This document shows, piece by piece, positions 57,189 to 63,262 of a stretch of 64,000 bases of DNA. The position numbers and the translations under genes were made by a program. Each line of letters begins with the position of its first letter. The stretch's first letter is position 1. Below the pieces are notes generated by a model that was not told the DNA's origin, searched no databases, and saw nothing but the letters and a program-made list of their open reading frames with translations. Source of the DNA: Aurantiacibacter poecillastricola (GTDB lineage: Bacteria; Pseudomonadota; Alphaproteobacteria; Sphingomonadales; Sphingomonadaceae); assembly GCF_030730945.1 (NCBI RefSeq), contig NZ_JAVAMS010000002.1, positions 682,001 through 746,000 on the forward strand. The letters run 5' to 3'.

Positions 57189-57634
57189 GAAAGCAATTCC
57201 TTCACCCAGCCGCTGGCCCGGCCCATGTCGAGCTGCGTGCCGTGGCGCGCCTTGAGCTCGCCCATCACCTTGCCCATGTCCTTCATGCCCTCGGCTCCGG
57301 TGTCGGCCTTGATCTGTTCGATTGCGGCCTTCGTCTCTTCCTCGCTCATCTGGCGGGGGAGGAATTCCTCGATCACGGCGAGTTCGTTCTTCTCCTGCTC
57401 GGCGAGTTCGGTGCGGCCGCCTTCCTCGTACATCTGGATCGATTCGCGGCGCTGCTTGGCCATCTTCTGCAGCACGTCGATCACCATCGCATCGTCGTCG
57501 CCGGCGTCCTTGCCGCGCAGCTCGATATCGCGGTCCTTGATCTTGGCCGAGATCAGACGAAGAGCGGCCGTGCGCTCCTTGTCCTTGGCCTTCATGGCGG
57601 TGACCGTTTCGGCCTTGATGGAGTCCCTCAACAT
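57185..57634 (-). CDS. GatB/YqeY domain protein
   Basis: This 149-residue protein is a free-standing YqeY domain, related to the tail of GatB that binds tRNA during amidation. It begins MLRDSIKAETVTAMKAKDKE and has RLISAKIKDRDIELR and LPRQMSEEETKAAIEQI. Whether it takes part in tRNA amidation is not known. It is divergent from carA and upstream of dnaG and rpoD, a layout common in alphaproteobacteria. ATG 57634 is chosen over the 13-residue longer frame. Confidence 0.92.
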   Translation of the reverse strand: MLRDSIKAETVTAMKAKDKERTAALRLISAKIKDRDIELRGKDAGDDDAMVIDVLQKMAKQRRESIQMYEEGGRTELAEQEKNELAVIEEFLPRQMSEEETKAAIEQIKADTGAEGMKDMGKVMGELKARHGTQLDMGRASGWVKELLS

Positions 57635-57784
57635 GGTTCTGCTAGTCTTTCCTGTGGATCGTTGGGCCCTCACTTAATGCAAGCTGCCACAAAGCCAAGT
57701 CTTGTGCTTGACGAGAGGGCAGGAGCGGCCTAGCCGCTGGGACTTAGCACACATTGCCGGTCCACTCATTCAACGGGAGCCACC

Positions 57785-58966
57785 ATGGCCTTTCTCGCCT
57801 CTTCGCGCGCGCAACCTCAAGATGCGACGGGTGTCCTCGTTCTTGCCGACGGTACCATCGTCTGGGGCAGGGGCTTCGGCGCCACCGGCAGCGCGGTGGG
57901 GGAGGTATGCTTCAACACCGCGATGACCGGCTACCAGGAAGTGATGACCGATCCTTCCTACGCCGCGCAGATCGTCACCTTCACCTTCCCGCATATCGGC
58001 AATGTCGGCGCCAATACGGAGGACGTGGAAAGCCGCGTCGAGGGCGCGGTGGGCTGTATCGTGCGCGAGGACGTGACGCGCCAGTCCAACTTCCGCTCCG
58101 AAGGCGAGTTCGTGGAGTGGATGGCGAACATGGGCAAGATCGGCCTGTCGGGCGTCGATACCCGCGCGCTCACTCGCCGCATCCGCTTGTCGGGCGCGCC
58201 CAATGCTGTGATCGCGCATGATCCCAAGGGCAGGTTCGACCTCGACGCGCTGCTGCAACGTGCGCAGGAGTGGCCGGGCCTCGAAGGCATGGACCTCGCC
58301 CAGCGCGTGTCCCGCGAACACCAGGAGGACTGGGAAGGCGGCTACTGGCGCCTCGGGCAGGGCTATGGCGCAGCGGAGCGTGAGGGCAAACCACATGTCG
58401 TCGCCATCGACTATGGCTCGAAGGACAACATCTTCCGCAATCTCGTGAAAGCGGGCGCGCGGGTAACGGTGGTGCCGGCGCGCACCTCGCTGGAAGATAT
58501 CCTCGCGCTGAAGCCCGATGGCGTATTCCTCTCAAACGGCCCCGGCGATCCGGCGGCGACAGGTGAATATGCTGTGCCGGTGATCAAGGCGCTGCTCGAT
58601 CAGGACATGCCGATCTTCGGCATCTGCCTCGGCCACCAGATGCTGGGACTGGCGGCAGGCGCGCGGACCGCCAAGATGCACCAGGGCCACCGCGGCGCGA
58701 ACCACCCGGTCCGGCGCGTGGGCGAGAGCTGGGGCGAAACGCAGGACCTCGTCGAGATCACCTCGATGAACCACGGCTTCGCCATCGACCCGGACTCGCT
58801 GCCCGAGGGCGTGGAGCAGACGCACGTCTCGCTGTTCGACGGCTCCAACTGCGGCATCGCGATCACCGGCAAGCGCGCCTTCGGGGTACAGTACCACCCG
58901 GAGGCTTCGCCGGGTCCGCAGGACAGCTTCTATCTGTTCGAGAAGTTCGTGGGGATGTTGGGGTGA
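57785..58966 (+). CDS. carA: Carbamoyl-phosphate synthase small subunit
   Basis: CarA hydrolyses glutamine and passes ammonia to CarB. The 393-residue protein has the N-terminal CPSase domain ([14 protein letters not shown] to [12 protein letters not shown]), then the class I glutamine amidotransferase with the nucleophile loop [13 protein letters not shown] and a His/Glu pair near [13 protein letters not shown]. Its stop overlaps a GTG that begins the cargo region between carA and carB. Confidence 0.96.
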
Positions 58967-59361
58967 AGGGCCGGAGACTAATCAAGCTTCAGGTCTGTTC
59001 GATCTTCTTCATGACACTTGTTCTAGCAAGCTGCGTAGACAGCATTGATGACATCGCCGACGACATTGAATTTGGGGGGAGCATCTCAGATTATGAGCGG
59101 AATGAGGTTCTCGTTTTTGAGCCCATGATGTTTGCTGAACGAGAGTGGCTCGGAGATACGAAGGCTTCTTCGAAGCGAGGAAAGTTCCGAGCGGAATGTA
59201 TCCTTGGGCCAATGGTGATACATTCCAAATTGCGCGCGAGAACGACGATAATGCCCAAACGCTCTGACACCTCCTCCATCCTCGTCATTGGCGCCGGTCC
59301 GATCATCATCGAGCAGGCCTGCGAGTTCGACTATTCCGACACCCAGGCGATCGAAGCGTAA
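58963..59361 (+). pseudogene. Lipoprotein-like ORF fused in frame to a decayed carB start (insertion cargo)
   Basis: The 132-codon frame starts at GTG 58963, overlapping the carA stop. Residues 1-95 begin with a lipoprotein signal (lipobox LASC, Cys24) and then an acidic segment ([18 protein letters not shown]) with no domain I recognise. From residue 97 it reads [19 protein letters not shown], a copy of the carB N-terminus, then stops at TAA 59359-59361. DNA from about 58970 to 59250 is visibly less GC-rich than its neighbours, which suggests transfer. A second forward frame is open from 59139 to TGA 59265, so the lipoprotein may have carried a different C-terminus before a frameshift. Confidence 0.7.
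59251..59361 (+). pseudogene. Partial duplicate of the carB 5' end (36 codons)
   Basis: Compared by eye with the intact carB start at 59939, the first 36 codons differ at 13 of 108 bases; 11 codons differ, 5 of them changing the amino acid. Two are Gly to Glu and Gly to Asp in the conserved [15 protein letters not shown] segment, which would break a functional CarB. It ends with TAA, so it is not expressed as CarB. Confidence 0.85.
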
Positions 59362-59363
59362 TC

Positions 59364-59938
59364 GTGAAGGCCGCGTTCGCCTTTCCCTTGGTCATGCTCG
59401 CCGCCTCCCCCGCCGCAGCGCAGGAGCTTGTGCAACTGCCGCTGTTTAGCGACACCCTCGTCCTGCAAGGCGAGTTTGGCGTCACTTCCTCCACCCTCCA
59501 GCCAGACACCGCCGAGGTCAGCTTCTGGCGACCCGTCACGCTGTACGATGATGACGAACCCGTAGGCGGACGCATGGACTGCCGCCTCGCCGGGGTGGTG
59601 CAGCCTTACACGGACGAGCTGTTCGACATCGCGGCGCGCTACGAGGCCAGCAAGACGCGGCGCGATTATGCGGGGCTCGATGACGATGGCGATCCCGATT
59701 ACTCCGAGGACGGCCTAGTCCGCCGCCTGCAGGTGACGGGCCGCTCAAACGATCCGCATCACCATTACGTGCTCACCTTCCTCGCCATCCATGCAGGCGA
59801 GGCGCTTTACGACATTCGCATCAATTGCGAATTCCGCCACCTCCACTCTCCCGACAACGATACCGACTATGCCGCCATTCAGGCACGCTATGTCGATCTC
59901 GCCATTCCCGTTCCAGCTGCCAGCCAAGAAGGCCAGTA

Positions 59939-59939
<1 letters not shown>
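59364..59939 (+). CDS. Exported hypothetical protein between carA and carB
   Basis: The 191-residue product has a signal peptide ([20 protein letters not shown]) and a beta-rich, acidic body with two Cys (RMDCRLAG and INCEFRHL) and a His cluster ([20 protein letters not shown]). No family is recognised. GTG 59364 starts it, three bases after the pseudo-carB stop; the same GTGAAGG heptamer occurs at the carA stop, suggesting the gene originally overlapped carA directly. Its TAA overlaps the carB ATG (TAATG), so it is translationally coupled to carB. Confidence 0.65.

Positions 59940-63262
<3,323 letters not shown>

Follow-up and report, generated by a model that had tools for sequence, protein, structure and literature searches.

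How did a dead copy of the start of carB come to lie between two small genes in the carA-carB interval? The window, i.e. the whole stretch of DNA that was analysed, comprises 64,000 nt of Aurantiacibacter poecillastricola (GCF_030730945.1, contig NZ_JAVAMS010000002.1, positions 682,001-746,000, forward strand), and the locus reads as follows:

57785..58966, + strand: carA, the left flank of the slot (ORF list; relatives in 80 genomes).
58963..59250, + strand: first cargo ORF, a lipoprotein-like orphan (ORF list; without a Pfam match).
58963..58969, + strand: GTGAAGG, a cassette start overlapping the carA stop (sequence; gap survey).
59251..59358, + strand: the stub, a dead copy of carB codons 1-36 (repeat search; alignment to the live start).
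59359..59363, + strand: TAATC filler, with the in-frame stop of the stub (TAA, 59359-59361), followed by the next start (sequence).
59364..59370, + strand: GTGAAGG, the same type of cassette start, behind the stub (sequence; gap survey).
59364..59939, + strand: second cargo gene (the 59364 gene), encoding a predicted secreted protein (ORF list; the family adjoins carB elsewhere).
59939..63262, + strand: live carB, the right flank (ORF list).

The carA stop codon (TGA, 58964-58966) shares bases with the GTG start (58963) of the first cargo ORF, which runs on in the same frame through the dead carB start and owes its lipoprotein-like label to an LVLASC box. At the other end the stop of the 59364 gene runs into the carB ATG (59939), forming TAATG. 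The lower-GC upstream segment of the original prediction is present (0.49-0.525 over 58900-59299 vs 0.625-0.695 over carA, in 200-base windows); in addition the codon-position GC pattern is absent from the 3' half of the first cargo ORF, which is perhaps decayed. The 36-codon carB copy, likewise predicted, is confirmed: counted from the ATG, 95 of its 108 bases (59251-59358) are identical to the live start and 13 differ, and the repeat search finds a direct repeat (59239-59358 and 59927-60046) that is 86% identical. The stub scores 151 in alignment against at most 31 in reverse-complement and shuffled controls of 176 gaps, a result far beyond chance, and it is unlikely to be an assembly echo because there are 13 mismatches between the copies and other genomes show a similar arrangement. 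A query of 147 carB N-terminal residues matches three places in its own genome at E <= 0.001; besides the live start and the stub it finds the second half of carB, with 43% identity. The 59364 protein has a predicted, mostly beta structure (mean pLDDT 81.8). No Rfam match at gathering score falls within 57500-60500, and promoter and terminator predictions in the window are about as frequent as in shuffled sequence. In a homology search the lipoprotein ORF matched 452 proteins; its own family was not recovered, since the best 120 of the 452 all carry the carB N-terminal Pfam domain, and matches in a plasmid search with this stretch were confined to the carB part.

Among relatives this interval is strikingly changeable. 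In a first sample, the best 80 carA-matching loci of a larger number of matches, the carB start lies behind carA in 80/80, and the carA-carB gaps with two measurable ends span -1 to 1832 nt. A wider set of 241 loci, from which 21 were dropped because the script missed a flank and in which 33 duplicates were merged among the 220 placed, left 187 distinct intervals; flank order in this set holds by construction, the loci without both flanks having been dropped. These 187 intervals range from -1 to 2506 nt (>200 nt in 160, <=60 nt in 20); they bear out the cargo site that the original prediction had suggested for the carA-carB gap, and enlarge that claim. Control intervals are narrow: carB-greA measures 83-140 nt in 52/52 loci, and yqeY-carA 138-192 nt (5th-95th percentiles, n=123) with a maximum of 859. 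The carA matches of L027, L042, L053, L067, L082 and L089 are 60 to 120 nt longer than those of most relatives.

Gaps of at least 150 nt number 161, and 157 of them contain ORFs, the first of which has 4 nt in common with the end of carA in 112/157, while the last overlaps the carB ATG by one base of its stop in 86 and abuts it in 21; the chain carA-GTGA-gene-TAATG-carB foreseen for the window is thus the common layout of the family. The heptamer GTGAAGG does occur at both expected places, 58963-58969 and 59364-59370, but its interpretation as an insertion repeat marking short homology had to be rejected, since in the 161 gaps the overlap with the carA stop reads GTGA in 117, GTGAAG in 15 and GTGAAGG in 3, i.e. 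the heptamer is an ordinary cassette start. The 161 gaps, compared between species, hold 210 ORFs in about 87 clusters, most of them of orphans and 56 of them singletons, an approximate count inasmuch as some ORFs are antisense to DUF559 genes and the largest cluster mixes those with the 59364 family. Gap GC averages 0.545 vs 0.646 in the carA 3' end, and is lower in 156/161 gaps. A common gap cluster is found in 15/73 pairs with 90-95% identical flanks and in 1/5 pairs at >= 95%. Protein scans covered 73 gap proteins (72 of the 87 cluster representatives, the 15 left out being mostly short or antisense-looking, plus the 59364 protein): at most 5 have Pfam matches, the window's own stub included, PADLOC recognizes 0/73, and neither integrase nor transposase families appear among the 73. 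Gap families searched genome-wide sit mainly at this locus. The 59364 family adjoins carB in all 7 genomes with a match among 298, other genera included; a second family lies at the carA-carB locus in 3/3 places and a third in 2/3, each with matches in 2/199 genomes. The carA-carB junction of the Sphingomonadaceae/Erythrobacteraceae is therefore a variable slot with constant neighbours. The original view of its cargo as different exported proteins holds as to variety but is too narrow as to export, for FitA/PIN and DUF559 genes are also present. The gap genes of L020, L039 and L098 are orphans with a common GxxDGxCGxYS start, presumably reminiscent of cysteine peptidases.

The dead carB start also recurs. 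When each gap was aligned to the first 400 nt of its own carB (from the ATG), 17/176 gaps across several genera contained stubs at score >= 30, compared with 1 in reverse complement, 2 in shuffled sequence and 5 with the carA end as query. L137 has three carB-start copies besides the live start. Frequencies of 17/176 and 23/167 are overstated, as some loci, seven stretches among them, were picked for extra carB-start matches; less biased figures are 8/397 genomes by protein search (G000 and 7 of 12 others with three or more carB-start matches) and five clear cases (L022, L027, L039, L060, L075) in the 80-locus sample. At least 29/48 bases of the own carB start are matched by 20/1711 gap ATGs vs 4/28531 elsewhere. 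Copies upstream of carA were seen in 1/123 loci (1500 nt searched), and before greA in 0/52, but those gaps of only about 100 nt offer little room. Among 115 genomes across the class, two of the family, one besides the window's genome has a third carB-start match, and the best carB-start match of this genome begins at a contig edge; the class-wide query came from this family, and short stubs elsewhere could escape it. Contigs break within the first 37 carB codons in L036, L052, L132 and L140, a pattern that nearly identical start copies or a mixture of strains would be expected to cause during assembly.

Of these stubs 16/17 start at carB base 1 (where the query itself starts), and their ends are spread from 25 to at least 137 nt into carB. 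Taken by themselves, the window and L039 pointed to a fixed crossover at codon 36-38 of carB, an idea abandoned when further stubs with other end points came to light. The longest stub, L134, has at least 137 nt and about 20 more by eye; none much exceeds about 160 nt, though illegitimate joins could fall anywhere in carB. Repeats of 25 to >=137 nt that differ mostly at third positions are not the constant-length repeats of a target-site duplication.

Cargo behind the stubs is of three kinds, orphan genes (the window, L039), FitA/PIN modules and DUF559 elements, and Pfam confirmed all ten proteins submitted. Modules of a FitA-like antitoxin and a PIN toxin occupy seven gaps (L129, L130, L134, L137, L155, L156, L198), six with stubs by the filter and the seventh with one by alignment to its own carB. 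The free end is best displayed by these loci, because like modules at like distance from carB (module end 50-59 nt before it in 7/7) are combined with stubs whose ends, from 52 to at least 137 nt, differ in all seven. The left end in these loci is never more than about 40 nt away from the toxin match, a regularity not expected of random joins unless selection acted. In all seven the toxin C-terminus stops within a few tens of bases of the carB stub, and in L155 and L156 the toxin reads into the stub in antisense. DUF559 genes are found in 18 gaps, on the minus strand in 18/18, with a stub within 330 nt upstream in 10/18 and none at the thresholds used in the other eight; the element ends 36-52 nt before carB in 8/18. 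These nuclease genes lie between GC-rich palindromes in L022, L109, L060, L118, L223, L137, L155 and L126, about 560-600 nt separating the stub from the next start, and in L022, L109, L060 and L137 the left palindrome begins, by eye, 38-39 nt past the stub ATG. The small DUF559 element may be mobile.

Stub and live start usually differ as alleles do. In 17 ungapped cases the differences by codon position are 19/19/58, and the prediction that the two window copies are distinct alleles stands, with 34/185 foreign carB starts resembling the window stub more closely than the live start does. A foreign start is nearer than the own one for 12/18 stubs, in keeping with recombination that is homologous at one end and illegitimate at the other, and an allelic origin is well supported for the stubs of the window, the DUF559 loci and the signal peptides (mostly short). 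For the remaining 6/18 the own live start is nearest, and all are FitA/PIN stubs (L129, L130, L134, L137, L155, L156; the seventh, L198, has a nearer foreign start), which therefore look more like an insertion-made duplication or a near-kin import. As to which window copy is the older, the three nearest relatives by carB body, chosen among 98 loci long enough, agree with the stub at 88.9/91.7/83.3% of third positions and with the live start at 75.0/83.3/72.2% (36 sites), so that the lipoprotein ORF and dead start look resident; the argument is a weak one because only 36 sites are compared and the correlations with carB body similarity over the 98 loci, 0.47 and 0.45, are nearly alike for stub and live start. 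The newcomer is thus probably the 59364 gene together with the live start, which reverses the order originally proposed, in which a relative's carA-lipoprotein-carB fragment had arrived. A crossover map of the window carB has no clear switch point and locates no homologous crossover, and the five extra bases TAATC at the window junction are not explained by clean microhomology.

Severed starts need not be dead. The first 16 residues of CarB comprise a basic stretch and then a hydrophobic strand, so that a stub joined in frame to a secreted protein could act as its start and signal peptide. A carB N-terminus score >= 33 is reached by 20 gap start codons, compared with 2/52185 starts outside gaps (a null limited to starts free of stops for 20 codons); the best of 4279 reverse-strand gap starts scores 26. 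Several carB-like starts in gaps do not look dead, namely those of L231 (MPNRADISSILISAAALSVAMPAVASAED), L170 (MPKRTNNSSIFVIGAVLSLSAC), L027 and L137 (MPKRTAISYILPGITALTSAGC and MPKRSDIYCVLVTALGLGCAAC) and L075 (MPKRTGPSSVLPLLAAFGVAMPAAAQ). L170 and L231 have 40/48 bases in common with their own carB start, L027 and L137 30/48, and L075 29/48, a level attained by the same 4/28531 ATGs outside gaps; the L231, L170 and L027 genes terminate on the carB ATG. The protein P0132 reads MPKRTGISSILIIGAG-FLAVTSAHA, with 14 of its first 16 residues as in carB, and its homologues P0131 and P0133 retain a drifted form of that start. Three proteins were matched in a search with the L231 protein. One is the L231 protein itself (P0131, from Croceicoccus sediminis); another, from a metagenome, has its carB start nearly intact (MPKRTGISSILIIGAGFLAVTSAHA), and in the last the start has drifted. 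Mature domains of the L231 type occur right behind carA with ordinary signal peptides in L016 and L204 (E 2e-14, 1e-12), and L017 is an ordinary signal-peptide relative of L027 (E 5e-4). In at least three protein families, so counted because L075 belongs to the L231 family, the carB start thus looks like the independently captured signal peptide of an orphan; L126, L061 and L082 are possible further captures. Such fused carB-derived peptides would presumably work as export signals. P0125 was set aside, its carB likeness being by eye only, as were the 59364 relatives L162/L165, where the DNA score of L162 (27) is within the control range and the frame was not established.

The explanation to which we give slightly better than an even chance is a slot filled through one homologous and one illegitimate end, with stubs as scars of the swaps, some of them reused as signal peptides. 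Small fast-changing genes would ride on the carAB operon in this slot. DNA of relatives would enter by homologous recombination through the conserved carA end or the carB body, and its opposite end would be joined illegitimately; a join inside the carB start would sever one start as a dead stub, with a complete start arriving along with the new gene or remaining beyond. Either flank may be the homologous one, giving the same end sequence. In the window the stub and lipoprotein-like ORF would probably be the older layer, and the 59364 gene and live start the newer. A stub falling in frame with a secreted protein would become its start and signal peptide, and appears to have been retained so several times. 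Long direct repeats might delete the insert, and we suppose that long stubs are missing for this reason. The variable slot with its constant neighbours, the recurrent stubs, the allelic differences of most stubs and the in-frame fusions are observations; the recombination route and its polarity are what we infer from them. No donor was found, and the genomes, one per species, include no close-strain pair with and without the insert.

A different polarity is possible but distinctly less probable, namely that the relative's carA-lipoprotein-carB fragment came in from the side of carA, with its carB end becoming attached ahead of a resident 59364 gene. The final sequence would be identical, and the recurrence of the 59364 family beside carB in other genera suits a resident; the third-position comparison nevertheless favours the stub as the native allele, and the GC-poor, perhaps decayed lipoprotein ORF is as compatible with foreign DNA as with an older layer. 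It is rather unlikely that insertion itself duplicates the carB start, for example through the DUF559 nuclease element with its palindromic ends or together with FitA/PIN modules, the window being a derivative. The uniform strand of the DUF559 genes, their frequent upstream stubs, their preferred distance from carB, the position of the left palindrome in four loci and the finding that in six of seven FitA/PIN loci no carB start is nearer to the stub than the own live one all speak for such a process. However, eight DUF559 gaps lack a stub at the thresholds used, the window gap has neither a DUF559 match nor a Pfam match at the family cut-off, and varying stub lengths with mostly third-position differences are unlike a fresh duplication of constant length.

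Local tandem duplication of a gene together with the carB start, followed by divergence, would likewise put a carB start behind a gap gene, but is the least credible of these alternatives inasmuch as the two gap genes of the window fall in separate clusters and many foreign starts are nearer to the stub than its own live copy. Hardly more probable is convergence, any basic and hydrophobic N-terminus being taken to resemble carB. The weak gap matches (L061, L082 and the second match of L126) could be of this sort; yet 0 of 973 crude signal-peptide-like starts outside gaps reach a score of 24, vs 50 for L170 and 43 for L231, and the DNA-level match of the latter two and the carB residues of P0132 (for which no score was computed) are equally hard to reconcile with it.

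The swap scheme that we prefer has partial precedents. Saunders and Snyder reportedly introduced the minimal mobile elements of Neisseria in 2002. In these, different whole-gene cassettes are incorporated by homologous recombination between two conserved genes (PMC3082526). The carA-carB slot shares with the elements so described conserved flanks, constant order and differing whole-gene cassettes; unlike them it lies inside one operon, its cargo often overlaps both flanking genes, and it retains scars of the start of the downstream gene. The Neisseria cassettes differ between strains, whereas those at carA-carB were compared between species only. For the orphan immunity arrays of the Vibrio cholerae type VI secretion system (T6SS), the authors propose layers added through one homologous and one illegitimate end, with remnants of displaced genes, effector 3' ends and immunity genes, retained (PMC5361080). 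Successive layers and remnants are likewise found in the carA-carB slot (cf. PMC5361080), but here the remnant is the 5' end of a housekeeping gene and in some cases seems to serve again as a signal peptide. Homology-facilitated illegitimate recombination has been demonstrated in the laboratory (PMC3240628). It is the joining proposed for carA-carB, where it is inferred from sequence and where the variable stub ends fit an illegitimate join. A 1995 report is said to describe a variable carA-carB intergenic sequence of Neisseria, made of non-coding repeats; the two genes and the variable interval are the same, but coding cargo and carB-start scars distinguish the present locus. Integron cassettes are a poor parallel, no integrase having been found among the 73 gap proteins. 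Titles and abstract openings on carA-carB intervals, housekeeping-derived secreted proteins and the birth of orphans in operons contained no description of this locus.

The origins of bacterial orphan genes and of signal peptides are both obscure, and here one address in many genera gathers orphans and keeps the scars of swaps, with apparent intermediates between the start of an enzyme (MPKRTGISSILIIGAG) and signal peptides that have drifted away from it. Across the whole family, a translated insert is tolerated in the operon between the genes for the two subunits of one enzyme. Chances seem evenly balanced that the carB start is a recurrent portable start and secretion signal, and the locus a small factory of new exported orphan genes. 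If this is true, a carAB swap could leave behind a carB start, and an in-frame join would make the inserted coding DNA exported or lipid-anchored and translated with the operon.
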